A stretch of DNA of 57,890 bases from positions 1 to 57,890 of the forward strand of contig CANRMT010000003.1 in NCBI GenBank assembly GCA_947631815.1, read 5' to 3'. The position numbers and the translations under genes were made by a program. Positions within the stretch are counted from its first letter, which is position 1; every line of letters begins with the position of its first letter. The notes under the pieces were generated by a model that was given only the letters and a program-made list of their open reading frames with translations, was not told the DNA's origin and made no database searches. The stretch is from an uncultured Eisenbergiella sp. (GTDB lineage Bacteria > Bacillota > Clostridia > Lachnospirales > Lachnospiraceae). Positions 3,142 to 57,890 of the stretch are shown in pieces.

Positions 3142-5259
3142 TCACTTGCTCTTGGTGTCGAGCACCTTCTCCTGTACGCTCTTCGGCACCTGTTCGTAGC
3201 GCTCGAAGAACATGGAGTAGTTGCCGCGGCCCTGCGTCTTGGAGCGCAGGTCGGTGGAATAGCCGAACATCTCAGCCAGCGGCACATAGGCCTTGACCAT
3301 CTTGCCTCCGCCGATATCTTCCATGCCCTCGATCCGTCCGCGGCGGGAATTGATGTCGCCGATGACGTCGCCCATGTATTCCTCGGGCATCGTCACCTCC
3401 ACCTTCATGATGGGCTCCAGCAGCACGGGATCGGCCTTCTTCATCGCATCCTTGAACGCCATGGAACCGGCGATATGGAACGCCATTTCGGAAGAGTCCA
3501 CTTCGTGATAGGAGCCATCGTACACGTTGGCGTGCACGCCCAGCACCGGGAACCCGCCCAAGATACCGGCCTTGGTCGCCTCTTCGATACCTTCCCCGAC
3601 CGCGGGGATGTATTCCTTCGGGATCGCACCGCCGACAACGGTGGATTCGAACTTGAAGGTCTCCTCACCGTTGGGATCCATGGGCTCGAACTTCACCTTG
3701 CAGTGCCCGTACTGGCCGCGGCCGCCGGACTGTCTCGCATACTTGCTGTCCACATCCACGGCCTTGGTGAAGGTCTCCTTGTAGGCCACCTGAGGGGCGC
3801 CCACATTGGCTTCTACTTTGAACTCGCGCAGCAGGCGGTCCACGATGATCTCCAGGTGCAGCTCGCCCATGCCCGCGATGATGGTCTGTCCGGTCTCCTG
3901 ATCCGTATGGGCCCTGAAGGTGGGATCCTCCTCCGCCAGCTTCGCAAGCGCGATGCCCATCTTATCCTGACCGGCCTTGGTCTTGGGCTCGATCGCCAGC
4001 TCGATGACAGGCTCCGGGAACTCCATGGATTCCAGGATCACCGGATGCTGCTCGTCGCAGATCGTGTCGCCCGTGGTGGTGAACTTGAAGCCGACCGCGG
4101 CCGCGATGTCGCCGGAGTAGACCTTTTCCAGCTCCATCCGCTTGTTGGCGTGCATCTGCAGGATGCGCCCCACGCGCTCTTTCTTGTCCTTCGTCGCGTT
4201 CAGCACGTAGGAACCGGAGTTCAGCGTGCCGGAATACACGCGGAAATACGCCAGCTTGCCGACGAAGGGATCCGCCATGATCTTGAAGGCCAGCGCGGAA
4301 AAAGGCTCCTCATCGGAAGAATGCCTCTCCACCTCGTTGCCGTCCAGATCGACGCCCTTGATCGAAGGGATGTCGGTAGGCGCCGGCATATAGTCGAGGA
4401 TCGCGTCCAGCAGCTTCTGTACGCCCTTGTTCCTGTAGGCGGAGCCGCAGCATACCGGGATCGCCGCACATTCGCAGGTCGCTTTCCGAAGGATCGCTTT
4501 CATCTCCTCCACGGAAGGCTCTTCCCCTTCCAGATAGCGCATCATCAGGTCGTCATCCAGCTCGCAGATCTTCTCGATCAGCTCGGTGCGGTACAGCTCC
4601 GCGTCGTCCTGCATATCCTCCGGCACGTCTGTTACGGAGATGTCTTCGCCCTTTTCATCGTTGTAAATGTAGGCCTTCATCTCGAACAGGTCCACGATCC
4701 CTTTGAAGGTCTCTTCCTTGCCGATGGGAAGCTGCAGGATGATCGCATTCTTTCCCAGCCTCGTCCGGATCTGATCCACGGCGCCGAAGAAATTGGCGCC
4801 CATGATGTCCATCTTGTTGATAAATGCCATACGGGGAACGTTATAGGTGTCAGCCTGACGCCATACGTTCTCAGACTGAGGTTCAACGCCGCCCTTCGCG
4901 CAGAAAACGCCCACCGCACCGTCCAGTACGCGCAGAGAGCGCTCCACCTCTACGGTGAAATCAACGTGTCCGGGCGTATCGATGATGTTGATACGGTGTT
5001 CCAGTGCGCCTGGCTGTTTTTTGGTAAATTCTTCGTGAGTCCAGTGACAGGTGGTAGCGGCGGAGGTGATGGTGATGCCTCTCTCCTGCTCCTGCTCCAT
5101 CCAGTCCATTGTCGCGGTACCCTCATGGGTGTCGCCGATCTTGTAGTTCACGCCGGTGTAGTAAAGAATACGCTCTGTCAGAGTGGTCTTGCCTGCGTCG
5201 ATGTGCGCCATGATGCCAATGTTCCTGGTCCTCTCCAACGGATAATCTCTTCCAGCCAA
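3142..5259 (-). CDS. fusA: Translation elongation factor G
   Basis: 705 aa; [53 protein letters not shown]. Confidence 0.98.
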
Positions 5260-5328
5260 AGTATTTCCTCCTCAAATCGGGGTCCCGGACGGACCGGGCC
5301 CCGTCATGTCCGGCTGGCCTGCCGAACC

Positions 5329-5799
5329 TTAAAATCTGTAATGCGAGAACGCCTTGTTCGCCTCAGCCATCTTATGAACGTCTTCTTTTCTCTTCACGGA
5401 CGCGCCCGTGTTGTTGGCGGCATCCAGGATCTCATTCGCCAGCCGCTCTTCCATGGTCTTCTCGCCTCTCTTGCGGGAAAACATGGTCAGCCAGCGCAGG
5501 CCCAGCGCCTGGCGTCTGTCGGCCCTGACTTCGATCGGCACCTGATAGGTTGCGCCGCCGATCCTTCTCGCCTTGACCTCCAGAACAGGCATGATGTTGT
5601 TCATCGCTTCTTCGAATACTTCCAGCGCAGGCTTGCCGGCCTTCGCTTCCACTCTGGCGAACGCCCCGTACACGATCTTCTGCGCGACGCTCTTCTTGCC
5701 GTCCAGCATGATGGTGTTGATGAGCTTCGTCACCACCTTGTCGTTGTACAAAGGATCCGCCAATATCTCTCTTTTCTGAATATGTCCTCTACGTGGCAC
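5329..5799 (-). CDS. rpsG: 30S ribosomal protein S7
   Basis: (M)[30 protein letters not shown] start at 5799 after AAGGAGGG gives 156 aa; the ORF-track start at 5826 is upstream. Confidence 0.96.
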
Positions 5800-5971
5800 G
5801 GTTCTTCCCTCCTTAATCATCCACAATTAATTCAAAGGTACTCACATGTGCAGCTAATGTGTTCGTGCGGTCTATCTGTCCGCCTGCGGCGAACTGCGGG
5901 CCTTCGCCCGCCACAGAATCCCAACACTGAAATTAGTTTACGTTTGTGGTACTGCTTGCGGTATCAGCCGG

Positions 5972-6394
5972 TCATTTCTTGCCGGCCTTCGGCCTCTTGG
6001 CGCCGTACTTGGATCTGGCCTGGCGTCTGTTCGCCACGCCCGCGGTATCGAGTGTGCCTCTGATGATGTGGTATCTCGTACCGGGGAGATCCTTAACACG
6101 GCCGCCTCTGATCAGCACTACGGAGTGCTCCTGCAGATTGTGGCCTTCGCCGGGAATGTAGCTCGTCACTTCGATCCCGTTGGAAAGGCGTACTCTGGCG
6201 ATCTTTCTGAGGGCGGAGTTAGGCTTCTTGGGAGTCGTCGTCTTCACAGCCGTGCACACGCCTCTCTTCTGCGGAGAGGAAGCATCCGTCGCCTTCTTGT
6301 GAAGGGAGTTGTAGCCTCTCTGAAGAGCGGGCGCCGTGGACTTCTTCTCAGAGGTCTGACGTCCTTTTCTGACTAACTGGTTAAATGTTGGCAT
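5972..6394 (-). CDS. rpsL: 30S ribosomal protein S12
   Basis: 140 aa; [34 protein letters not shown]. Confidence 0.98.
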
Positions 6395-25312: not shown

Positions 25313-25981
25313 TTACAAAATATCCTCACTGTCATATTCGATGACGGAGAACTTCTCCGCTCCCGCCTCCCGTACGCTCTCCGCCAGCTCCTCCGGCCGT
25401 TTCACGGACAGTTCGATCACCAGGTCCATTCCGCGCTCCGTATAATTCCGGCTCTTGATCCGGTACTTTCTGGTATGGCTGCGTATGCCTTCCAGAATGG
25501 CAGCCTCCTTCTCCGGCGCACAGTGCAGTACCAGCACGAAGGGCCGCCTGCCGATGACGATATGCTCCATGCACAGCAGCACGACCGTCACCATAACGGA
25601 GGTCAGCACCGCGATCTCATACAGCTGACACCCGCAGGTAATGCCGATATGCACGGACCAGAGCAGATAGAGCATGTCTACGGGATCCTTCACTGCCGTC
25701 CGAAAGCGCAGGATCGCCAGAGCGCCGATGGTTCCCAGCGTGATCACGATATTGGACTGCAGGCACAAAATGATGGTGGAAATAAAAAAGGGCAGCACCG
25801 AGACACAGATATGGAAGGAGCGGTTATAAAAGGCCCTGTGAGAGACCAGCCTGTAGACGACGAACTCATAAGCGCTCAGGAACAGGACCATGAGCAGCAC
25901 GGACAGCACAACGCCCGTTCCCAGAACAGGATTTTGAAACGCGTCGGTCAGATTTCCCAACGCACGAACGACAGCATTCAT
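25313..25981 (-). CDS. DUF4956-type polytopic membrane protein
   Basis: SNIVITLGTIGALAILRFRTAVKDPVDMLYLLWSVHIGITCGC; start overlaps the upstream VTC stop (ATGA). Confidence 0.82.
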   Translation of the reverse strand: MNAVVRALGNLTDAFQNPVLGTGVVLSVLLMVLFLSAYEFVVYRLVSHRAFYNRSFHICVSVLPFFISTIILCLQSNIVITLGTIGALAILRFRTAVKDPVDMLYLLWSVHIGITCGCQLYEIAVLTSVMVTVVLLCMEHIVIGRRPFVLVLHCAPEKEAAILEGIRSHTRKYRIKSRNYTERGMDLVIELSVKRPEELAESVREAGAEKFSVIEYDSEDIL

Positions 25982-26751
25982 TTGATCAGAACTCCTTTCC
26001 TTTCCCGCGGGCACTCCCGCACACCGACACCCGGATACAGCGGTATCCGGCCCATACTCTGCAGTTTTTTCCTCCCCAGCGCATATTTGGAGAAGGAAGA
26101 AAACAGCAGATTTCGCTCCGTGACGATCTGTTTGACGTATCCCGGCAGAAGCTCGTCAAATTTCACCTCCAGCACATGCTGGTTTTTGTCCAGCAACGGA
26201 TAACGGATGTAATCCCCATCCGTAAAATGAGAAAAATCGTCCGAAACGGAAATATTCTCATCCAGCGTGATGCGCACATGCAGGATCTCGTCCACATAAG
26301 CGGTCCTCTCGTAGTCGATCACGGCCTTCGGAACAAAGCCGTCCGCCATGCACCGGACGCAAAAGCGTTTCAGCAGGGGCTCCTCTGCCTGCCAGAACGC
26401 TTTCTCCGGGTCCTGCTCCAGGATGTCCCGATACGCCTCCAAAGAAAGCATACAGCTTTCCTTATGGCAGCGGCCGCCCGCTTTTTCCTTGCGTTCCAGC
26501 CAAAGAGGACCCTCTTTGTTTCCGTAACGGCGGATCCGGTATTTCACCCGTTCCGATATCCCGGCGTCATTTTCCCGCACACAGCTGTCTCTCCAGTCAT
26601 CAAAATAAAGGCTGTGAACCGTGTATTTTCCCGTCGGGTCCCCGTGGATATCCTTTTGGAGCGCTGCATCCAGCCGGACGCCGATCAGACGAAGCTCTCC
26701 CGAGGTACCGTAATATTTCCATTCATTTCTGTATTTTTTGATCCCGCTCAC
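25978..26751 (-). CDS. VTC-domain (polyphosphate polymerase-like) protein; N-terminus uncertain
   Basis: RNEWKYYGTSGELRLIGVRLDAAL, YTVHSLYFDDWRDSCVRENDAG, KYRIRRYGNKEGPLWLERKEK, PKAVIDYERTAYVDEILHVRITLDENI. ORF opens at 26955; a predicted -10 at 26817-26822 and hairpin leader argue for a downstream start. Confidence 0.82.
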   Translation of the reverse strand: MSGIKKYRNEWKYYGTSGELRLIGVRLDAALQKDIHGDPTGKYTVHSLYFDDWRDSCVRENDAGISERVKYRIRRYGNKEGPLWLERKEKAGGRCHKESCMLSLEAYRDILEQDPEKAFWQAEEPLLKRFCVRCMADGFVPKAVIDYERTAYVDEILHVRITLDENISVSDDFSHFTDGDYIRYPLLDKNQHVLEVKFDELLPGYVKQIVTERNLLFSSFSKYALGRKKLQSMGRIPLYPGVGVRECPRERKGVLIK

Positions 26752-26816
26752 CTCCGGACGGGCCGGTTCCCGTTTTCCTGTCCGCATTGCTTCGGACAGG
26801 TCCGGCCTAAAACAGG

Positions 26817-26863
26817 AGTATACCTCATTTTTCTTCATCTTTGGTATGCAGCCAGCATACAAT
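26817..26863 (-). promoter_or_regulatory. Predicted promoter P3: ATTGTATGCTG box 30 nt upstream of a TATACT -10, with GTATGC-N5-GCATAC inverted repeat
   Basis: Minus strand ATTGTATGCTGGCTGCATACCAAAGATGAAGAAAAATGAGGTATACT; same box and spacing as at 31941-31987 and 32026-32072. Confidence 0.6.
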
Positions 26864-26864
26864 T

Positions 26865-26896
26865 GGGCCGACGTGGATCTGACTCCACGTCGGCCC
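26865..26896. terminator. Perfect 13-bp stem hairpin between kinase and VTC genes (possible insulator/terminator without T-run)
   Basis: GGGCCGACGTGGA-TCTGAC-TCCACGTCGGCCC. Confidence 0.55.
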
Positions 26897-26924
26897 GTAT
26901 GCTTCGGCCCATATTCATAAGCGG

Positions 26925-28388
26925 TCATTCCCCGCCATATGTCTCGTAATAACACCAGGGGCTCAGATACTCCTCCGGCACAGGCTCCGGCGGTTCAAAA
27001 GAGCTGTACTCGTTCGGCCTGGAGGTATAGACCCGGACCGCAAAGCGCCAGGCATTCCCTCTTTCCGACAGATATTCGCTCCGGATCCGGATCCCGCCCC
27101 TGCCCAGTCTGACGATCTCTTCCTTGGACAGATAGCTGTTGATCACATAGGCGCCGGACTTATCGTATACCCACACATCGAAAATGTCCTGATCCGCATA
27201 TGCCTCAAGATTATCCCAGGAAGCGACGATCTCCCGCCCCAGCTCGCCGTCCAGAAATTTCCACGACAGCCCCGTGGGCGCAGGCAGCGGCGGCGCATCT
27301 TCTCCCATAAACACGAACGCATCCGAAACCACATAGGGACTGTCCGCAAAACGGACGCCGTCCCCCAGGGCGGACACCGTAAAGTAATAGGTCCCGTCGC
27401 CCTGCAGCTCTGTCACCAGGCTGCAGAGAAAATCCATCTCATCCGGCAGATTGCCGGTGGCTGTACCCGTCCGGATCCAGCCTTCTCCGTCCTGCTCCGG
27501 AGGGACGTCCGTTTTGTAAAGCCTCCAACGATAGGCCACCCCGCTGCCTTCCCCGGAATCCGGGACATTTCCCCAGACGGCCGTTCCCGTCTCTCCGTCC
27601 CAGTGCGGATCTGCCGGAGCAGGAAGGACCGTCTGCGCTCCCTGTCCGCCGCTCCCGACGCCCCACAGCACGGCCGCACAGCAGACAGCGGCCAGAAGCG
27701 CCGCGGCGCCCGCCCACAGGGGAAGCCGCCCCGCCAGGGAAAGGACCCGCCTCACCTGGCGGACGGACTGATACCGCTTGTCCGGGTCCAGCTCCGTGCA
27801 TTTCAGGAGGATCTTCCTGTAACGGGGACGCCGGGCCCGCTCTCCCAGAAGCTGGCGCAGCGTCACGCCCAGGGCATAAATGTCCGCCCGCTCGTCCGTC
27901 TGGGAAAACCCGAACTGCTCCGGCGGCGCATATCCCCGCGTGCCCAGCAGCCTCGTATCCTGCTCCAGATCCTCCTTCGGCATCCGCGCCGCGTCAAAAT
28001 CGATGAGCCGGATATGGCCGTCCGCCGCCAGAATGATATTGGATGGCTTGATATCCCGGTGAATGATGCCCTTCTCATGCAGATACTCCAGTACGAGACA
28101 CAGCTCCCGCGCCGCCTTTTTTATCTGTGCCTCCAACAGCTCCGCGCTGCCGAGGGATTGCCCCTCTATATACTCCTCGACCACCGTGACGGCGTCCTCG
28201 TCCTGGGTCACCTCATACAGGCGGGGCAGGCCGGGATGCGCGCACTCCTTCAGCGCCGCATAAACGGGAAATCTGCCGTTCAGCCGCTTCCGGATGCAGA
28301 GCCTGCCGCCGTCCTTTTCCCGGACCAACTCCACAACGCCCTTTTCACTCTGTTTGATCAGCCGAAGCCGTTCATACTCCATCTCCAT
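26925..28388 (-). CDS. Transmembrane Ser/Thr protein kinase with FN3-like extracytoplasmic region
   Basis: 487 aa; IIHRDIKPSNIILAADGHIRLIDFDAAR, GTRGYAPPEQFGFSQTDERADIYALGVTLRQLL; TM LWAGAAALLAAVCCAAVLWGVG. Confidence 0.9.
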   Translation of the reverse strand: MEMEYERLRLIKQSEKGVVELVREKDGGRLCIRKRLNGRFPVYAALKECAHPGLPRLYEVTQDEDAVTVVEEYIEGQSLGSAELLEAQIKKAARELCLVLEYLHEKGIIHRDIKPSNIILAADGHIRLIDFDAARMPKEDLEQDTRLLGTRGYAPPEQFGFSQTDERADIYALGVTLRQLLGERARRPRYRKILLKCTELDPDKRYQSVRQVRRVLSLAGRLPLWAGAAALLAAVCCAAVLWGVGSGGQGAQTVLPAPADPHWDGETGTAVWGNVPDSGEGSGVAYRWRLYKTDVPPEQDGEGWIRTGTATGNLPDEMDFLCSLVTELQGDGTYYFTVSALGDGVRFADSPYVVSDAFVFMGEDAPPLPAPTGLSWKFLDGELGREIVASWDNLEAYADQDIFDVWVYDKSGAYVINSYLSKEEIVRLGRGGIRIRSEYLSERGNAWRFAVRVYTSRPNEYSSFEPPEPVPEEYLSPWCYYETYGGE

Positions 28389-28971: not shown

Positions 28972-28999
28972 AAGAGCATTGACCTCAGGAAACGGATAC

Positions 29000-29035
29000 G
29001 GGCCGGGGATCTTGCAGCATCCCTGGCCCGCCATA
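29000..29035. terminator. Hairpin between convergent genes
   Basis: GGGCCGGGGATcttgcagcATCCCTGGCCC; no strong T-run. Confidence 0.45.
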
Positions 29036-29072
29036 TATTCTCCCCAACATACTTTCCAACCGACAGATCTAT

Positions 29073-30509
29073 CTACATATGATAGATAACCGGCCGGTCT
29101 TTTAACACATCCTGCCAAAGCACTTCAATATCATCGCGCAGATCATCCCATTCTTTCGATATGATTTCGTCAACATAACGGTCTCTCAGTTTCGGTTTTT
29201 CGATCAACGCCCACTTCACCTGTTTGATAGAGTATTGAACAAAAACAAGCCATTGAGGATAATTAATGTTCAGAGGATCCTGTGTCAGCGCCACTTTTCC
29301 GGCATTGATTGCCGCAGATGCAGAATGCGCAATAAACAGCATCGCGCCAAGCTTTGGCGTCTTTTCATGGTCCGTATTGAACGGGATCGATTCCCTGAAA
29401 GAATACCCCTCATACAGACGCTTGATAAAATAGGAAACGCGCACTATCACTTCTATGATCATCACCGGAATCGACATGGAGCAGAAATGGCGAAAATCAT
29501 ATCCCTGGCCGTACATTGACTGTACCATTTCAGCGATATTCAGTTTTTCCTCCCCGATGCTACCAAACTGAAGTTTATTGAACAGTGCCATGAAAGGGAC
29601 CGGAAGACCGGCCGGCGTATTCACATCGGAAAGCATATGCAGAAAAACCTTTGATATCGCCTCAAACGGATTCTTCGCCTTTCTGTCCCTGTAAACATCC
29701 ATCACCTGAATCACGAACCTGCCCTTGCGGTCCAGCGTCGTCATAGTCCCCCGCAGTTCATCCAAAACCCCACAAATGAAACCGAGGATCGGATCATGCC
29801 CAAGTGACACCAGACGGTGAAAATAAGAGGATAACCCATCCACATATACGGCAGTATCCCTATTATTCACCGCATCATAAGTAACTTTCGCTTCCTTTTC
29901 AAGCTCTTTGATCGTCTCGGGGGGAAGCGCTTTATCAAAAAGCTTTCCAACATATTCAGAAAACGGTCCCGGCACACCCTTCCGATTCTCCGGCCTGATA
30001 AAACCGCCAAACGCACAATCAAGAGCTCCGCTCAAGATTCCCGCCAGCGCAGAAATAATAATATCCACTTCATCCAGACGGTGAATGGAGTCAAACTCCT
30101 TCCGATAGATTCTCAACTCCTCTCGGTTGCGCGCTATCTCTTCAGGGGTAAAAATATCATCAAATCCCACTTCTCCCGGGATTTTTTCATTTGCTTCCCG
30201 CAGCAGTTCAGCGAAAGGCTTCACAATGATCGGTTCTTTGAACGAATCTATTCTCTGTACCTCAACCGGGGGCTTCTCCTCCGGGTCCATCACCGGAAGT
30301 TCACGGCCATTGGATTTGATCACCCTCTCCGTATCCTCAATGCACTCTTCCACCTTCCGGCTGCTGTCACCCAAAATCTGTTCCTGCTTCTTGCCCTCTT
30401 CCTGCGCTGCCTTGATCACTTTAAGAATATCAGCCTGCCATTGTTCCGATTTCAACATCTCCTGCGCCCTCTCATTCTCCGCTTTTACACAACACGGCCT
30501 GCTGTTCAT
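29073..30509 (-). CDS. Uncharacterised protein, helical N-terminal region plus hydrophobic segments
   Basis: 478 aa; 8 nt downstream of the 448-aa gene on the same strand; segments VDIIISALAGILSGALDCAFGGFI and MSIPVMIIEVIVRVSYFI; no family recognised. Confidence 0.7.
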   Translation of the reverse strand: MNSRPCCVKAENERAQEMLKSEQWQADILKVIKAAQEEGKKQEQILGDSSRKVEECIEDTERVIKSNGRELPVMDPEEKPPVEVQRIDSFKEPIIVKPFAELLREANEKIPGEVGFDDIFTPEEIARNREELRIYRKEFDSIHRLDEVDIIISALAGILSGALDCAFGGFIRPENRKGVPGPFSEYVGKLFDKALPPETIKELEKEAKVTYDAVNNRDTAVYVDGLSSYFHRLVSLGHDPILGFICGVLDELRGTMTTLDRKGRFVIQVMDVYRDRKAKNPFEAISKVFLHMLSDVNTPAGLPVPFMALFNKLQFGSIGEEKLNIAEMVQSMYGQGYDFRHFCSMSIPVMIIEVIVRVSYFIKRLYEGYSFRESIPFNTDHEKTPKLGAMLFIAHSASAAINAGKVALTQDPLNINYPQWLVFVQYSIKQVKWALIEKPKLRDRYVDEIISKEWDDLRDDIEVLWQDVLKDRPVIYHM

Positions 30510-30517
30510 GCCCTTTC

Positions 30518-31858
30518 TTATTTCCCCAGATCCGCTTTAAGATCCTTTATGATGAGCTTCAGGACCGTATTCAAACTAGCCAGATAATCAGCTCTTTCCT
30601 GAACCGCATTCACCTCCGCCTTGATCCTGAACATGATCGCATTCTGCTTTTCGATCGCCTGCTGTAAAAGTCTTTCTTTCTCCGTTTCCAATTTTTTCTT
30701 ATTTATTTTTCCGACCGCTATCGCACCTGCACCGGCCAGGGCCGCGATCGGAACTGCAAGAACGAAAATGCCCGCCACCATACCGCCGCCGACCAGTGCG
30801 CCCAATGCAGCCAACGCGGAGGTAATTCCGGCCGCGCTCAATCCGATCACACTTCCCATAAAATAAAGCGCCAGGAAGGAACCGACCGCACCAATTCCCC
30901 CGCCGATAAAGCAGCCTGCCACCTCCGGAAAGCTCCCCACGAGAATAGCCGCATTCTTGCCGCTGTCCCTGATCATCCGGCTTTCATCTTTGATACCTTT
31001 ATCCGCTTCCTTCAGAATGCCATCGATCGGCTCAAGGGACTCCAGCGTTTTATATCGTATTTTCCCTTTTTCGGGCGCTTTCTGCTGTTCTGCAGTTTTG
31101 AAAAAGGGTTCCTTAAATAACGCAAAAAACGCCATTTCCCCAAGTTTTTCATAACTGCGGTCACCCCATGCGATCACTTTGCTTTCCCTGTCCAAAATAC
31201 GGAAGTATCCGCCTCCTTTCTGTAATCTGTATCCGTCCCGGGTTTCTTCCGTATTCCACAATCCCTGTTCCGCCGCTGCCGCATTATACTCTTCCCGGTT
31301 CGGGAGCTGCTGTACGATCTTTACAAACGCTGGATTCCGAGGATCTGCCTCCGCCATGAACGAATCAAACCCTCCCCAGTCCAAAAATTCATGGATCAGG
31401 GCTGAATACTGACAGCGATAAGTCGCCCGTTCGCCTTTAGCCACCGCATCCCCAGCGGCTTTCACAAGATTTTTATGCGGCAGCGGAACATCCCTGTATA
31501 TCCTCTGCATATTTTCGCAGTAGTTCCGGAATTCCTCAAAATAATCCTTCCATTTCAGATCATCCAGTGAAGCGTATATTGTACACACATTCCCTGCCCA
31601 TCCATAACGCATTCCGAACTTACTGAATTTCCACCGTGTTTTTTTATCTTTTTCCCAGTCCTTTTCCTTTCTGGCCTCTCCGAAATAAATGATCTTATCC
31701 AATGGCGAAATCGCCAATGTCCTTTCATCGAAATTCTTAGCGTAACGCACGATGACATCATAATTTGCAGATTTTATCCGGATTTTATCTCCCAAGCGTC
31801 TTCCGTATTCCTCCTCAGGGGAATTTTCCACTACGATAATAATTTTTTTCCTTTCCAT
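30518..31858 (-). CDS. Uncharacterised protein: Rossmann-like N-terminus and Gly-rich transmembrane C-terminal segment
   Basis: Starts MERKKIIIVVENSPEEEYGRRLG after AAAGGAG; C-terminal GGGIGAVGSFLALYFMGSVIGLSAAGITSALAALGALVGGGMVAGIFVLAVPIAALAGAGAIAVG. Confidence 0.7.
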   Translation of the reverse strand: MERKKIIIVVENSPEEEYGRRLGDKIRIKSANYDVIVRYAKNFDERTLAISPLDKIIYFGEARKEKDWEKDKKTRWKFSKFGMRYGWAGNVCTIYASLDDLKWKDYFEEFRNYCENMQRIYRDVPLPHKNLVKAAGDAVAKGERATYRCQYSALIHEFLDWGGFDSFMAEADPRNPAFVKIVQQLPNREEYNAAAAEQGLWNTEETRDGYRLQKGGGYFRILDRESKVIAWGDRSYEKLGEMAFFALFKEPFFKTAEQQKAPEKGKIRYKTLESLEPIDGILKEADKGIKDESRMIRDSGKNAAILVGSFPEVAGCFIGGGIGAVGSFLALYFMGSVIGLSAAGITSALAALGALVGGGMVAGIFVLAVPIAALAGAGAIAVGKINKKKLETEKERLLQQAIEKQNAIMFRIKAEVNAVQERADYLASLNTVLKLIIKDLKADLGK

Positions 31859-31940
31859 AACCATCGCTCCTTTCTGAATTTTTCTTTTTCACAGCATGGG
31901 CATCTGTCATTTCTCCTTTTGACCGCCGCTGTTACAGTTC

Positions 31941-31987
31941 ATTATAAAGGAAAGTCTTTATTCCATGGTCTGCTGACAGCATACAAT
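31941..31987 (-). promoter_or_regulatory. Predicted promoter P2 of the two-gene operon
   Basis: Minus strand ATTGTATGCTGTCAGCAGACCATGGAATAAAGACTTTCCTTTATAAT. Confidence 0.6.
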
Positions 31988-32025
31988 TTATCTTTTTCGC
32001 TTTCTCCGAACCTGCTCATTTTTTT

Positions 32026-32072
32026 ATTATAAAGGGAACAGCGCCGTAAAGGGTAAGCACGCAGCATACAAT
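32026..32072 (-). promoter_or_regulatory. Predicted promoter P1 of the two-gene operon
   Basis: Minus strand ATTGTATGCTGCGTGCTTACCCTTTACGGCGCTGTTCCCTTTATAAT; 85 bp upstream of P2 with the same geometry. Confidence 0.6.
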
Positions 32073-32111
32073 CCGTCAAAAACATCTTGCCTGACCATAA
32101 TAACCATCTCT

Positions 32112-32159
32112 AAAAAAAGCAAAGACCGGCAGTGCCTCATACTGACACCGTCGGTCTTC
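32112..32159 (-). terminator. Rho-independent terminator downstream of cls
   Basis: Minus strand GAAGACCGACGGTGTC-AGTATGAG-GCACTGCCGGTCTTTGCTTTTTTT. Confidence 0.75.
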
Positions 32160-32219
32160 GCCCTTCTAAGCCCACAATATGCAGTTTCATTCCGAAAAAA
32201 CACCGCACGGACTGTCCCA

Positions 32220-50596: not shown

Positions 50597-53500
50597 CTAA
50601 TATTTCATCACCTTTTCCATCAGTGATCTGTAACTATCCACCACATCATACACAACATTGTTGCCGCTGATTGCCTTAAAATGCTCCCGTGCACAATGAA
50701 TCTTTGATTCCTCTATCAACCTAAACTGCATGGAATTCATAGACCCTTTCGTCTCTGCCACAAAATAAATATGCTTCACGCTGCCTTCATAAAAAGCAAT
50801 CGCCCAGTCCGGATTATAATGCCCTACCGGCGTAGAGATATAAAATCCATCCGGGAGTTTCACATATACTGCCACATCCGTATTGATATCCAGATCCTGC
50901 GCAAAGTCACGCTCATTGGACGAATCGTACACGATATGATCGTACAAATGCTTCTTCGCTTTCATTGCATTGACACCCAATTTGCCTTTGATTATTGGAT
51001 CTGTAAAGATATCCGTTCCATACTGCTCACCCAGAGCATCATATGTAATATGCTCAATAATAGCCGTTGCCTTCTGATCATTGATCAGCTGTGCCGCTTT
51101 GGATATAAACTCTTCTGGGTTATCCCTGAATTGATTGAACACAAGTGGCTGTATCCCTCGGAGGATTGCAGCGATAGCCTTACGTGTAAGACCCGTCTCA
51201 TCCACCAGCTTTCCGATCAAGTCATATTCTACATTAGAATTGGCCGCTGCAGAAGCGCCATAGCTGTTGGATGCTTCTTTCACGAAAGAAACGCCTGCCG
51301 CAAGATCCTCCTTTGATTTTATGGAATCCATTGTACCAGTCTCCACCCGAAAAAGTATCTTTGAGACTCTAAGTTTTGAATCCAGAGAAGCAATAGACTT
51401 CCTGACCAGTTCATCCGTATCAAAATCCACTACATAAACAGACTTCGCATTAATCTTTGACCACAACGCTTTAAATTCTTTACTGTTCAATTTCTCGTCA
51501 TTCACATGAAGTTCTACATTATTGCTACGCGCGTTCTCCGGCTGCATAACTTTACTGACATAGACAGAATCTATGATTTCTATTACACCGGAGGTAAAAT
51601 CTTTTGCTTCTTCTGCAATTTGCAACTCACCATTCGCCTTATCCTCGTAATACTTATCTGTAAGCTCTCCTTGCCTATTGATATACCTGTTTACGATCAG
51701 GTCATAGAAAATTGCCGAGGCCAAATCACTTGTTATAATAACTTCATTCCCCTCATTGTCCTTAACTAACTTATCAACAAACAGCTCTCTGGTGACAGCT
51801 TTCGGCCTGTCCGCAACAGCCTCTGCCAACTCTGTCTGAAGGCCTTTTGCAAAAGAATCATAACTTTCACTTGCAATAACGGTCAGCACATTAATATTAT
51901 GCACATCATTACCCAACGCATTGACATCCATTCGCTCCCCATTCTGATTCACACAGAGGCGGAGTCCGCGTCCTACTTCCTGGCGTTTTCGAACTTCACT
52001 GCTGCTTTGTTTCAATGTACAAATCTGAAATACGTTTGGATTATCCCAACCTTCTCTAAGCGCAGAATGTGAAAAAATAAATCGTACCGGTGACTTTTGG
52101 GGATCTCGATCCAAAAGCAGTTCTTTATTCTTCATGATCAACTCATAGGCACTGACATCATCAGATGTTGTCTCCTTTCCTTTAACTTTTGAATTGACCA
52201 TTTTCCCTTTACCATCTACGGAAAAATATCCTGCATGCGTTTTATTTACCGGTATTGCCTGTAGATATCTCATATAATCATCTTCTCCCCAGGCGAGCTG
52301 CCAATTATTCAGGATATCTTCATATTCCTCCTCAAACATCACAGCGTACTTGCCGTTTACTGGATGATTTGCAGCATCATACGCGCGATAGTTTGCGACC
52401 TCATCAATGAAGAACAGGGAGAGGACTTTAATTCCCTTATAAAATAACTGGCGTTCCTTCTGCAGATGCGAAAGAATCGTCTCCCGAATCTGAATCCTGC
52501 GAAGCTGATCCTCATCTACTGCTCCCACCACATCACCAGCATAAATCTTGATGCCATTGATAAACTCTAAGGAATCATCGCGCCCGTCAATATGGCTGAC
52601 TACAAAACCATTCTTATACTCTTCAAGGCCATTGGAATAATCATAAAGATTGTCCCCTTCTTTTACGATTTTACTCTTTTTCTTCGGAGCGCCGCTCGCC
52701 ATCTTCATCTCAAAGTGAAGCGTAGCCGTCGGATTGTTTTTAGACAAATTGATACTTTCCAGATACAGATAGCTGTCAGCAGCTGTACTTCCTGTTTCCG
52801 TAATACCTTTAACTGCAATCTTCTTAACCAACCGTTTATTATAGGCATCCATCGCATCCAATCGATAAACCATATTATAAATACTGTCACTCTTGTGCGT
52901 GGCAGAATACCGAAGCGTAATCATAGGATTAAACTGCTTCAGGTTTTCTTTTGTCTGCTTACCTTCTACAGACTGCGGCTCATCAATAATCAGGATTGGA
53001 TTTGTCTTTGCTATGATATCAATCGGTCTGCGTGAACGGAACTCGTCCAACTTCATATAAATTCTCCTGGCATCCCTGCCCTTTGCATTGAACGCCTGTG
53101 AATTGATGATCATAACATTGATGGAGCTGTCCGATGCAAAACGATCAATCTCTGTCAACTGGACAGAATTATATATAAAGAACCGAATTTTCTTTCCATA
53201 CTCCTCCGCAAAATGTTCCTGCGTCATTTCAAAAGATTTATATACACCTTCCCGAATAGCGATACTCGGGACAACAATGATGAACTTACTCCATCCATAG
53301 GCTCGGTTCAGTTCATACATCGTTTTGATATAAGTATATGTTTTTCCGACGCCGGTTTCCATCTCAATGGTAAGATTATATCCGTTCGCACGGCCTTCCA
53401 GCCTCGCAGACGGCACAATCTGATTCGCACGCTGGATTTTCTGCAGATGCTCCAAAATCAGCTGGTCATTCAACTCCGGAATAATCCGCTGATTACTCCA

Positions 53501-53659
53501 ACCGGTAAAGTCGATTTCATCTGTCAGACTCTGCTGAATATAACCGGAACCCCTGTCCATCATATAGGTCGGCGTCAGATACGGCTGACCTGCAAAGACA
53601 TCTACCACAGCCTTCGCAGCATCTGCCTGAAACTTTTGATACTTATACTGTATTTTCAT
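50597..53659 (-). CDS. res: Type III restriction endonuclease subunit R
   Basis: 1020 aa; NLTIEMETGVGKTYTYIKTMYELN (motif I), PILIIDEPQSVEG, SHSALREGWDNPNVFQICTLKQSSSEVRKRQEVGRGLRLCVNQ. Confidence 0.95.
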   Translation of the reverse strand: MKIQYKYQKFQADAAKAVVDVFAGQPYLTPTYMMDRGSGYIQQSLTDEIDFTGWSNQRIIPELNDQLILEHLQKIQRANQIVPSARLEGRANGYNLTIEMETGVGKTYTYIKTMYELNRAYGWSKFIIVVPSIAIREGVYKSFEMTQEHFAEEYGKKIRFFIYNSVQLTEIDRFASDSSINVMIINSQAFNAKGRDARRIYMKLDEFRSRRPIDIIAKTNPILIIDEPQSVEGKQTKENLKQFNPMITLRYSATHKSDSIYNMVYRLDAMDAYNKRLVKKIAVKGITETGSTAADSYLYLESINLSKNNPTATLHFEMKMASGAPKKKSKIVKEGDNLYDYSNGLEEYKNGFVVSHIDGRDDSLEFINGIKIYAGDVVGAVDEDQLRRIQIRETILSHLQKERQLFYKGIKVLSLFFIDEVANYRAYDAANHPVNGKYAVMFEEEYEDILNNWQLAWGEDDYMRYLQAIPVNKTHAGYFSVDGKGKMVNSKVKGKETTSDDVSAYELIMKNKELLLDRDPQKSPVRFIFSHSALREGWDNPNVFQICTLKQSSSEVRKRQEVGRGLRLCVNQNGERMDVNALGNDVHNINVLTVIASESYDSFAKGLQTELAEAVADRPKAVTRELFVDKLVKDNEGNEVIITSDLASAIFYDLIVNRYINRQGELTDKYYEDKANGELQIAEEAKDFTSGVIEIIDSVYVSKVMQPENARSNNVELHVNDEKLNSKEFKALWSKINAKSVYVVDFDTDELVRKSIASLDSKLRVSKILFRVETGTMDSIKSKEDLAAGVSFVKEASNSYGASAAANSNVEYDLIGKLVDETGLTRKAIAAILRGIQPLVFNQFRDNPEEFISKAAQLINDQKATAIIEHITYDALGEQYGTDIFTDPIIKGKLGVNAMKAKKHLYDHIVYDSSNERDFAQDLDINTDVAVYVKLPDGFYISTPVGHYNPDWAIAFYEGSVKHIYFVAETKGSMNSMQFRLIEESKIHCAREHFKAISGNNVVYDVVDSYRSLMEKVMKY

Positions 53660-53914: not shown

Positions 53915-55795
53915 CTAGATTACCTTGAGTCTTGTATCCGGCGCCAACATTTTGAATATTTCGCCGACATTGATTTTTGCAGGACTGCCATTAAAACTAC
54001 TGTCTCGAAAAACCGCCCGTAAAGGCTGTCGCTTGGCAATCTCTCTAATCACGGAATCCGGAATGTTTTCATCAAAACACGCGATTAAATCGCCGTCATT
54101 ATAGTTATGAACCATGCATCCCTCTATTTGCTCTGAGGTGTAAAGCAAGGACAAAGGAAGTCCCCACTCTAGCAGACAGCCAAAAAGCAAATCTAATGAA
54201 GTACGGTCCGGCTTGATATTGTTTTCCATCATGGCCAGCATATCCTGAGTATAGTCCCCTGCGGCATAATATACGTCATTCATATTGCTCTCATCTAATT
54301 TAAAAACACGGAACCCGCCATCGAAATCAGCATCAGGGTACTCCGCAGCAATTTTCTTTGCTGCACGTCGGATACGTTCCTTCCCAATATCACAAATAGT
54401 TCTATATCCTGCTTTAAATGCCTCACTCCTTTCATCACACTTCTCAGGAATCTGAATCATTATAAATTTACGATGTCCGCTATCCTCTGCATTTGCTTGC
54501 ATAACAGCTTGAGCCGTAGTTCCTGATCCGGAAAAGAAATCAAGCACTATAGCTTCATCCGAAGTAAAATTAAGCATTCTTCTAATAGTTGTTGATAACT
54601 TTGCTGTATCAAAAACCTTTGTATCAAACAGCGCATTGATTTCTGATGACGAACCCACTAAGAGATCCATCCATGAACTATTTAATAATGTTGTGTTAGT
54701 TGGCGGAATATAATGCTCAGGTTTCCCATTCGCAGATAAACGAAGCAGGTCTGTTCCTTTAGGCTGCTTTTCGTACCATCGATCTATTTGCTCCTGGCTG
54801 GGGTTAACATTACCTACCTCTATAATCATTTTCTGATAGTTGCTGACCGCGATATCACTTCTTTCCTTACTCCAACGCCATTGGCCGGATTCAGGTGTTA
54901 TCCCCAGCAAAGGATACCTCATTGTTGGTCTATCGGTACCTCTCCAATGATTATTCCACGTCCCGCCTCTAACCTCATCTAATGTTTTTTCTTGCCGTGG
55001 GAATCTATATGTTGAAATCTTACTATACAGTAGAATGTATTCAAAATCCTTCCCCAACTTGTCCCATGTATCAAACTGCGCCTGAACAGATTTTGCGCCG
55101 CGCCTAATAACAATTTGGTTTCTGAAATTATCAGCGCCAAAAACCTCATCACACATTTTTTTCAGATTGTCGACTTCCTCATCACCTATTGATATAAATA
55201 TAAGACCATCATCCGATAAAAGGTTCCTGGATAAAATTAAACGAGAATAAATCATTGAGCACCAGTCTGAATGAAATCTTCCATTAGAATCTGTGTTTCT
55301 GTACATCCTATTGCCTTCAGAATCCACATATCTATTCTCAGCATTCCAGTTTTCAACAGACATCTTAAAGTCATCTATGTAAACAAAATCATTTCCTGTA
55401 TTATATGGAGGATCAATATAAATAAGCTTTACTGTGCCTAAATAACTTTCCTGAAGAAGCTTCAACACTTCAAGATTATCGCCCTCTATATATAGGTTCT
55501 CCGTTGTTTTCCAGTTTACACTTTCATTTGGAAATGGTCTCAAAGTTTTCTTAATTGGCTTATTAGCCTCTATAATTGAAGCTTTTTTCCCTACCCATGA
55601 AAATTCATAAGCTTCCTCATTATCAATAACTTCTTCTGAAAGCATTTGTTTCAACATTTCAAAATTGATTCCCTCTTTTAGGGACCCTTTTGAATCAATA
55701 GACTCAGTAATACAATTCGGGAAAATTCTTTTTATTTTTTCAATGTTTTTTTTTGTCAGGTTTTCTGATTCCATCTTCATCTTTTCCACGGTCAT
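53915..55795 (-). CDS. mod: Type III DNA methyltransferase (site-specific adenine-N6) subunit M
   Basis: 626 aa; LIYIDPPYNTGNDFVY (DPPY), AIVLDFFSGSGTTAQAVMQAN. Confidence 0.95.
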   Translation of the reverse strand: MTVEKMKMESENLTKKNIEKIKRIFPNCITESIDSKGSLKEGINFEMLKQMLSEEVIDNEEAYEFSWVGKKASIIEANKPIKKTLRPFPNESVNWKTTENLYIEGDNLEVLKLLQESYLGTVKLIYIDPPYNTGNDFVYIDDFKMSVENWNAENRYVDSEGNRMYRNTDSNGRFHSDWCSMIYSRLILSRNLLSDDGLIFISIGDEEVDNLKKMCDEVFGADNFRNQIVIRRGAKSVQAQFDTWDKLGKDFEYILLYSKISTYRFPRQEKTLDEVRGGTWNNHWRGTDRPTMRYPLLGITPESGQWRWSKERSDIAVSNYQKMIIEVGNVNPSQEQIDRWYEKQPKGTDLLRLSANGKPEHYIPPTNTTLLNSSWMDLLVGSSSEINALFDTKVFDTAKLSTTIRRMLNFTSDEAIVLDFFSGSGTTAQAVMQANAEDSGHRKFIMIQIPEKCDERSEAFKAGYRTICDIGKERIRRAAKKIAAEYPDADFDGGFRVFKLDESNMNDVYYAAGDYTQDMLAMMENNIKPDRTSLDLLFGCLLEWGLPLSLLYTSEQIEGCMVHNYNDGDLIACFDENIPDSVIREIAKRQPLRAVFRDSSFNGSPAKINVGEIFKMLAPDTRLKVI

Positions 55796-56389: not shown

Positions 56390-57890
56390 ATAACTCCTCT
56401 CTGGATATGGTATAATAGAGTTGTCCAGAAACTATAAACCATACACCTAGGAAAGGAGTTATTCTGATACCTATGATACCATATAAACAGCTTTCTTTGG
56501 CAGATATTTTTCAGGATTGCCAGGATAAATTTGATAATGACAAACCTGCGTTTCTGTCTCTATTAGAAGAACATATCGATCTTGACGAAATGATTCCGCT
56601 CTCTTTTCGTAATCATTTCTATGCATCTACGGGCAGATCCCGTAAATACCCTTTACATGCTTTCTTGTGGGCGCTGATCATCCAGCGTATTTTCTCTATC
56701 CCTACCGATCAGCTCCTCCTGACTTTTCTCGCTTACTCGAAACCACTTCGTGAGTTCTGTGGTTTTTCCAAAGTCCCGGATGCTTCCAAGATCACCCGTT
56801 TCAAACAGGACTTTTTAGATGATCTGCAGCTCGTATTCGAGAACCTTGTTGATGTTACCGAACCCATCTGCAAGGCTATTGACTCTGCTAAGGCCGACAT
56901 GTCCATCTTTGATTCTTCCGGCATTGAAGCCTTCGTTACTGAAAATAATCCAAAGTACGCTAACAGAATCATTAAGCAGCTTAAGGCATATGCGAAAGCT
57001 CAGGGCTTTGATAATTCTTTTGATCCTTATAAGGCTGCCTATGGTTCCATGCCTGCTCATGCTTCTGCTAATCCTGAGATAAAACAGTTATATATCAATG
57101 GTCATTTCTGCTATGTCTTCAAGTTTGGCATTGTTACCAATGGTCTTGGCATCATCCGTCATATTTCTTTCTATAATAAAGACTTTATAACCTCTCATCC
57201 CGACATCGTTGTCAGTAAGAAATCCGATTCCCCTGACGAGGATAAGTCTGTTCATGATTCAAAGCTGCTTATCCCCACCCTCAGAGATTTCTTTGCCAAA
57301 CATCCATTGATCAATCCGAAAGTCTTTCTCGGTGATGCCGCCTTTGATACGCTTCCGCTTTACAAAGACCTGCTGACCGGTGATACCTTTGGCATGGGAA
57401 AACATTTCCACTCTGCTTACATACCTCTCAATAAGCGCTCCTCACTGGCGGATCATGAATCTTTTATCAATGAAGACGGTATCCCCTGCTGTCCCAATGA
57501 CCCGTCTCTTTTACTAAAGAAAGAGGGAAATCATACGGCTTTCCTTAAAAATGGTATCGCCCGGCAAAAGTTCATCTGCCCTTTAACCACATGGGATAAA
57601 TGCGGCGATGGAAAATACCGCCGTATTTGTCATTGCGAACATCCCTGCACTTCTTCCGTTTCAGGCAGAATGGTTTATGTTTATCCCGAAAAAAATCTTC
57701 GTGCTTATCCCGGAACTCTCCGCGGTACGGATGAATGGGATAATACCTACAAAACACGTGCCGTTGTGGAAAGGAATATCAACCATATCAAGGAGAATCT
57801 CTGCCTTGCAGGCCGCCGCACTCAGAATGAGAAAACCCTGCATGCGGATTTGATTCTGGCAGGCATCACTCAACTGATAACCGTCGTTCT
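56390..57890 (+). mobile_element. Insertion sequence, IS1182-like, partial (cut by window end; left boundary approximate)
   Basis: Transposase ORF runs to the window end; promoter TGGTATAAT near 56408-56416 and RBS AAAGGAG upstream. Confidence 0.6.
56473..57890 (+). CDS. DDE transposase (IS1182-like), 3' truncated by the window edge
   Basis: Manual translation MIPYKQLSLADIFQDCQDKFDNDKPAFLSLLEEHIDLDEMIPLSFRNHFYASTGRSRKYPLHAFLWALIIQRIFSIPTDQLLLTFLAYSKPLREFCGFSKVPDASKITRFKQDF... open to 57890; absent from the ORF track, which lists only short ORFs in this interval. Confidence 0.85.
   Translation, partial: MIPYKQLSLADIFQDCQDKFDNDKPAFLSLLEEHIDLDEMIPLSFRNHFYASTGRSRKYPLHAFLWALIIQRIFSIPTDQLLLTFLAYSKPLREFCGFSKVPDASKITRFKQDFLDDLQLVFENLVDVTEPICKAIDSAKADMSIFDSSGIEAFVTENNPKYANRIIKQLKAYAKAQGFDNSFDPYKAAYGSMPAHASANPEIKQLYINGHFCYVFKFGIVTNGLGIIRHISFYNKDFITSHPDIVVSKKSDSPDEDKSVHDSKLLIPTLRDFFAKHPLINPKVFLGDAAFDTLPLYKDLLTGDTFGMGKHFHSAYIPLNKRSSLADHESFINEDGIPCCPNDPSLLLKKEGNHTAFLKNGIARQKFICPLTTWDKCGDGKYRRICHCEHPCTSSVSGRMVYVYPEKNLRAYPGTLRGTDEWDNTYKTRAVVERNINHIKENLCLAGRRTQNEKTLHADLILAGITQLITVV

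Follow-up and report, generated by a model that had tools for sequence, protein, structure and literature searches.

Gene content and insertion site of the A-B cassette

The window, by which we mean the whole stretch of 57,890 nucleotides from an uncultured Eisenbergiella sp. that was analysed, contains on its minus strand two open reading frames of 448 and 478 amino acids, here called genes A and B, which are transcribed in the order A then B and are separated by 8 nt, exactly where a first, sequence-only reading had placed them. Features of the locus are the following.

28974-32202, no strand assigned: inserted cassette, delimited by BLAST of its flanks against compared loci L105 (genome G002) and L106 (genome G006)
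29073-30509, minus strand: gene B, 478-aa ORF, BnzB homologue; starts of relatives lie near codon 18
30518-31864, minus strand: gene A, 448-aa ORF, BnzA-like membrane subunit with an extra N-terminal part
30521-31072, minus strand: A residues 265-448, glycine-zipper membrane module and coiled coil, 35-51% identical to 14 stand-alone relatives
31073-31354, minus strand: A residues 171-264, linker with pLDDT mostly <50 and no homologue or family match
31355-31864, minus strand: A residues 1-170, unnamed alpha/beta 'RYGW' domain with F-G-M-R-Y-G-W-A-G at 83-91 and a conserved helix at about 150-170
31938-31987, minus strand: promoter-like module 2, same layout as module 1 and 85 nt nearer to A, from repeats D1/D3 and pattern search
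32023-32072, minus strand: promoter-like module 1, consisting of ATTGTATGCTG, 30 nt and TATAAT, from repeats D1/D3 and pattern search
32110-32170, minus strand: terminator-like inverted repeat I1 behind the cls gene, with 25-nt arms (72% complementary) and a T-rich minus-strand tail

For gene A, an ATG at 31858 (codon 3) is better spaced behind the sequence AAAGGAG. The cassette is flanked by an HTH gene and a cardiolipin-synthase-type (cls) gene, which converge on it with their 3' ends. When the flanks were compared by BLAST with two genomes of the same genus (L105 and L106), the HTH and cls genes were found to adjoin each other, the 3.2 kb being replaced by about 90 and about 27 bp, respectively. 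As 28974-32202 is missing from both genomes, the cassette comprises only A, B and their control regions. Neither a target-site duplication nor a recombinase was seen at the cassette. The lower G+C content suspected from the sequence was borne out, as it amounted to 47.3% for the region vs 58.4% in neighbouring sequence, and third-position G+C was 0.52 and 0.54 in the two genes vs 0.74-0.85 in flanking genes. Judged by such comparisons, the A-B cassette is horizontally acquired, through a precise insertion.

Neighbouring genes for a Ser/Thr kinase, a VTC domain protein, DUF4956 and the HTH protein were considered as parts of the system and rejected, since in both relatives the kinase and HTH genes are found on either side of the empty site, and the VTC and DUF4956 genes belong to the same block in G006. 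In the window, the genes for the DUF4956 membrane protein, the VTC domain protein and the Ser/Thr kinase, which has one membrane segment only, adjoin at 25313-28388, and they are common to the relatives. The other side of cls is also variable, with two unrelated small genes in G002 (L105 7138-8310) and luxS-like and nucleosidase-like genes in G006 (L106 3884-5115), so that the surroundings of cls look like an insertion-prone spot. At the low-G+C end of the contig (50597-57888), the genes of a type III restriction-modification pair, Mod at 53915-55795 and Res at 50597-53659, lie beside a transposase gene (56473-57888). Identities of the type III restriction-modification, MBOAT, cls and McrC-like neighbours mentioned in this work were read from the sequence, without a search.

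Upstream of A, the sequence-only reading had described two near-duplicated promoters 85 bp apart. The duplication itself was confirmed, with ATTGTATGCTG repeated at 11 of 11 positions and the -10 region at 14 of 16, the spacing being exactly 85 nt for both, and the best self-match of the upstream region was equalled in 1 of 500 dinucleotide shuffles. As promoters, however, the modules are only promoter-like, because a recognisable -35 hexamer is absent from both and a sigma-70 scan lists neither. The pattern ATTGTATGCTG-N(28-32)-TATAAT occurs twice genome-wide, both times upstream of A, and the modules are thus not those of a genome-wide regulon; the whole-genome pattern search found no regulon for the duplicated module. 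The terminator-like hairpin sets the A-B operon apart from the upstream cls gene.

Relationship of A and B to the Bunzi pair

Although no family had been recognised in either protein from the sequence alone, B proved to be a BnzB homologue, matching the PADLOC model with E=4.2e-66 over residues 18-459 (profile positions 40-502 of 504), nearly full length. Two hydrophobic windows (150-168 and 344-362) account for the hydrophobic segments that had been noticed before. Pfam and NCBIfam contained no match for B, and Pfam gave no family above chance level for 21 B members. The predicted model of B (pLDDT 84) is mostly helical with a long N-terminal helix. Conserved motifs are H231-R232, H238-D239-P240 and H291-x-x-S-D295; in B alignments that include canonical Bunzi, residues H231, H238, P240, G243, H291, D295, P303 and P305 never vary and R232 and D239 hardly do, and an H-x-x-x-D motif is present in 66 of 67 proteins of the B superfamily.

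In the case of A, the absence of a recognised family no longer applies to the C-terminal part, for which PADLOC BnzA was matched with E=5e-13, limited to residues 325-424 on profile positions 313-415 of 544. The Gly/Ala-rich hydrophobic stretch seen in the first reading is real and appears as overlapping hydrophobic windows at 324-384. Pfam and NCBIfam gave no match for A, and neither A nor B has sequence relatives in the PDB. Matches of A to LANC_like, Death_MADD, DUF2205 and a phrog family were at chance level. A relationship of A to the LeoBC paddle was also discarded, as PADLOC LeoBC matched with E=0.075 for the window A and E=5e-5 for canonical BnzA, HHalign was unsupportive, and the similarity was taken as one of composition. 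Two combined alignments intended for folding full-length A were set aside because MAFFT had placed N-terminal homologues on the membrane module.

Bunzi is the pair BnzA-BnzB (PDLC03833/PDLC03834 in PADLOC; Millman et al., 2022, cited through PMC10952713). It is listed with TerB in PMC10952713, and according to a 2026 review (PMC12926258) its mechanism is unknown. For the canonical BnzA of locus L184, Pfam gave no TerB match; BnzA and BnzB of this locus match the PADLOC models with 1e-206 and 1e-207. With canonical Bunzi the window shares the adjacency and order of A and B, a B protein that is homologous over its length and the membrane segment of A. In contrast, the N-terminal 264 or so residues of the window A show no relationship to profile positions 1-312 of BnzA, and no match begins before residue 325. 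The window thus has a BnzB homologue, the BnzA membrane segment and the A-B order, and it lacks a full-length BnzA and a place in the canonical clade. Because these last two features (BnzA N-terminal region and clade) failed, the window system, which is homologous to Bunzi and presumably works like it, is filed as a new variant within the Bunzi superfamily and not as a member of Bunzi.

Among its closest counterparts are pairs with a stand-alone A, or 'mini-Bunzi' pairs (such as L034 from Anoxynatronum buryatiense, L054-L060 and L124-L138), from clostridia, prophages and plasmids. They have the same operon order, B identities from 57% (L034, L060) down to about 42%, and 35-51% identity in the C-terminal module of A, but they are without the N-terminal domain and several have an extra membrane gene of about 110-130 aa between A and B. 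Their stand-alone A protein of about 180 aa corresponds to residues 265-448 or so of the window A; it has hydrophobic helices rich in Gly and, at its C-terminus, a coiled coil. Such pairs match the BnzA model weakly (E about 1e-5), and annotation tools may therefore miss them.

Among 392 genomes of the order, 35 had a BnzB match, and further relatives were found in 495 plasmid records, the majority of them conjugative, as well as in three phage records and 23 viral contigs; genome surveys throughout are samples, and ORF calls in the compared loci are mechanical. An A-module gene lies upstream of B in 35 of 36 close B relatives, either directly or separated from it by one or two short ORFs, and the carriers are mostly prophages, plasmids and clostridial genomes. 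The sole exception is a phage record with only an A fragment (Streptococcus phage phi-SsuFJNP8_rum, L156 4684-6257), where BnzB is located beside Tet(M) and A appears interrupted or lost. Both genes thus co-occur elsewhere, and neither protein proved homologous to a housekeeping family; a lack of co-occurrence or a housekeeping homology would have spoken against the sequence-only reading.

In a tree of 62 B proteins, obtained with a quick search and midpoint root, the window B falls into a five-member clade (support 99) otherwise made up of stand-alone-A systems, the B of viral contig L125 falls into another stand-alone-A clade, and canonical Bunzi (L184/L185) lies across a 100%-supported branch from the window B. 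As the window B is nested among stand-alone-A systems, its N-terminal fusion is derived, and the positions of the window and L125 in separate clades indicate that their fusions were separate gains. N-terminal extensions of more than 200 aa were found only in the window (264 aa), in L125 (285 aa) and in canonical Bunzi, where 215-274 aa precede the module (L184/L185). In L125 (A homologue at 4640-6019), the N-terminal slot is filled by an ADP-ribosylglycohydrolase (ADP_ribosyl_GH, Pfam E=1.5e-34), and in L186 an HTH domain is joined to the A module with no adjacent B. The exact fusion of the window was found once only. From these sequences A is a modular chassis, in which a conserved membrane module of about 180 aa can carry different N-terminal domains.

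Several other arrangements were observed. Macro-domain genes adjoin a BnzB pair (L136) and a RYGW pair (L121), and macro and ADP-ribosylglycohydrolase genes lie upstream of a long BnzB in L066; together with L125, these neighbourhoods hint at a link with ADP-ribosylation. The long protein of L066 (7231-9630, 799 aa) combines a BnzB core (57-433) with a PDC-M09A region (549-750) and so ties both PADLOC families. A second BnzB-type operon exists in the organism's own genome (L070, G000:C1, 7144-11456), in which an M48 peptidase domain and a BnzB-like core are fused into one 836-aa protein, accompanied by genes for a TerB-domain protein and for a PDC-M09A-like glycine-zipper protein. A further operon type (L042, L044, L067) has short BnzB-like proteins (360-503 aa) behind HTH regulators (WYL type in L042) and ahead of a third gene (DUF5050-like in L042).

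Occurrence of the RYGW domain

The N-terminal domain of A covers about the first 165 residues, carries the motif G-x-R-Y-G-W-x-G and has no model in Pfam, NCBIfam, PADLOC or PHROG. Its consensus comprises L-I-x-V, L-F-x-G-x-x-K, G-x-x-Y-G-W-x-G and a closing helix. The sequence-only reading had called this N-terminus Rossmann-like, for which the alpha/beta AlphaFold model (residues 8-165, pLDDT about 55-85) and weak, partial Foldseek matches to flavodoxin/Rossmann-like folds, covering only about 60 residues, give mild support, but a match to a solved fold was not obtained. The Foldseek comparison of AlphaFold models that had been proposed for both proteins gave no match with E<=0.001 for A or B in the PDB or for the N-terminal domain of A in BFVD, which leaves B also without a match among solved folds. 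Top Foldseek matches of GPCR type were long, poor superpositions and were rejected.

At the level of order, class and phylum, profile searches detected the domain in few genomes; they also detected it in two plasmids, one phage and viral contigs, and it was present in 26 of 98 genomes around G629. Five contexts were distinguished. First, in about 15 species of one clostridial genus, the LeoBC and LeoA genes are followed by a third gene, which encodes a RYGW protein with a short hydrophobic tail. This third operon gene is what the window has in common with the dynamin system LeoA/LeoBC (PDLC03839/PDLC03841; LeoABC in PMC4159319), whereas neither A nor B has a GTPase match and HHalign comparisons with LeoA and LeoBC were not significant. 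Second, on plasmids, phages and chromosomes, a RYGW protein of about 200-240 aa immediately precedes a PDC-M09B-like protein of about 500 aa, with adjoining restriction-modification genes in phage NatCom_9287 and adjoining DUF262 genes on a Peptoclostridium plasmid. Here too the likeness to the PADLOC candidate defence system PDC-M09 is confined to the RYGW protein, because A and B have no PADLOC match to PDC-M09A or PDC-M09B, and B compared with PDC-M09B-like proteins by HHalign was not significant. Third, the domain is fused to DUF697 beside a 522-aa protein. Fourth is the fusion to the A module in the window. Fifth, it forms the C-terminal half of proteins of about 350 aa in one clostridial genus (L216-L222), mostly beside MBOAT/AlgJ-like genes, and around these MBOAT-associated proteins no sign of defence was found.

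By profile comparison the window domain is linked to the DUF697 type (E=4e-17) and to the PDC-M09 type (E=1e-12). The Leo type is linked mainly via the PDC-M09 type (E=5e-19), its direct profile link to the window domain being weak (E=0.04), and one Leo-type member (L074) matches the window domain directly with E=8e-8. We tentatively propose, and rate the chances as somewhat short of even, that RYGW is a common sensor of infection or membrane damage plugged into unrelated membrane machines (dynamins, BnzA-BnzB, PDC-M09, DUF697). These would then form one immunity class with a shared trigger and interchangeable effectors, and the BnzA N-terminus would be a swap slot that holds a TerB-type region, RYGW, an ADP-ribosylglycohydrolase, HTH or nothing.

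Possible mode of action of the variant

Our preferred reading, to which we assign a probability of about 0.62, is that the cassette encodes a Bunzi-family membrane defence variant in which a swapped sensor domain drives a membrane effector formed by the glycine-zipper module and B. Homology, operon structure, modularity and horizontal gain are seen in the sequences themselves, and defence, sensing and membrane attack are what we infer; the phage-defence role of A-B is presumed from the family name. The N-terminal domain would sense or relay a cue of infection or membrane stress in the cytosol, and this cue would change the oligomeric state or the insertion of the glycine-zipper membrane module of A. 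A and B would then act on the inner membrane, either by permeabilisation or by hydrolysis through the near-invariant His/Asp set of B, which may be a membrane-associated metal-dependent enzyme. This would halt the infection and would probably be costly for the cell. The sensor-plus-membrane-effector defence module suggested by the sequence-only reading fits in outline, given the BnzB identity of B, the conserved A membrane module, the co-occurrence of both genes and their carriage by prophages, phages and plasmids. It is, however, not a two-gene unknown, as it belongs to the Bunzi superfamily and only the N-terminal 264 or so residues of A are unusual. The type III restriction-modification pair, read from the sequence 19 kb from the cassette on the same contig, was counted for defence. 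Counted against the preferred reading were the occurrence of the domain beside MBOAT/O-acetylation genes (L216-L222), so that RYGW is not confined to defence, the weak direct Leo link, the lack of a solved-fold match and the single occurrence of the exact fusion.

A rather unlikely alternative, although the best placed of those considered, makes B the catalytic effector, a YdjM-like, membrane-associated, metal-dependent hydrolase that would cut lipids or a membrane-linked substrate while A anchors and switches it. The HR...HDP and HxxSD motifs are conserved also in canonical Bunzi and in long B proteins, and the pattern H-x3-D-x2-T-P-x-G-x-P of B is the same as in E. coli YdjM. However, profile comparison of B with eight YdjM-family proteins covered about 21 columns with E=0.02-0.04 and was not significant, the 21 B members lacked a Pfam match above chance level and the motif could be convergent. 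As only the HxxxD-containing motif aligns and a significant sequence or profile match is lacking, B was not placed among the YdjM-type membrane hydrolases (PF04307), and that it may be a membrane-associated metal-dependent enzyme is a lead rather than a finding. Such a hydrolase would be compatible with the preferred reading as its effector step.

Less probable still is that the pair serves more generally in envelope stress or membrane maintenance (Ter-like), or as a competition factor of mobile elements, rather than in dedicated phage defence. Such a role would agree with BnzB homologues that have TerD/VWA genes in their vicinity (L155, an Enterobacter plasmid), with the carriage of BnzB homologues by phages and plasmids themselves and with the domain near MBOAT genes. 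On the other hand, the horizontal gain is patchy and precise, neighbours of homologues include restriction-modification/defence genes (L120) and a DUF262 pair (L119), and the canonical pair is a defence system in PADLOC. The preferred, hydrolase and envelope readings overlap, and their probabilities need not sum to one. An improbable reversal, in which the membrane module with B would sense membrane perturbation and the N-terminal domain would act as effector, as an enzyme of Rossmann- or flavodoxin-like kind that binds or hydrolyses nucleotides, could draw on the alpha/beta model with its weak flavodoxin/Rossmann-like segment matches and on the true enzyme family in the slot of L125, but the conserved residues (G, Y, W, F) are not catalytic-looking and most relatives are without any N-terminal domain, so that the core pair must work without it.

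BnzA thus consists of a small membrane module and a swappable front domain, which makes the proposed sensor separable from the effector and both testable by domain deletion or swap. Pairs of stand-alone A and B are common on prophages and plasmids. That one unnamed domain recurs in operons of the dynamin, PDC-M09 and Bunzi-like kinds suggests a common trigger and points to one interchangeable sensing part used by several membrane-directed immune systems.
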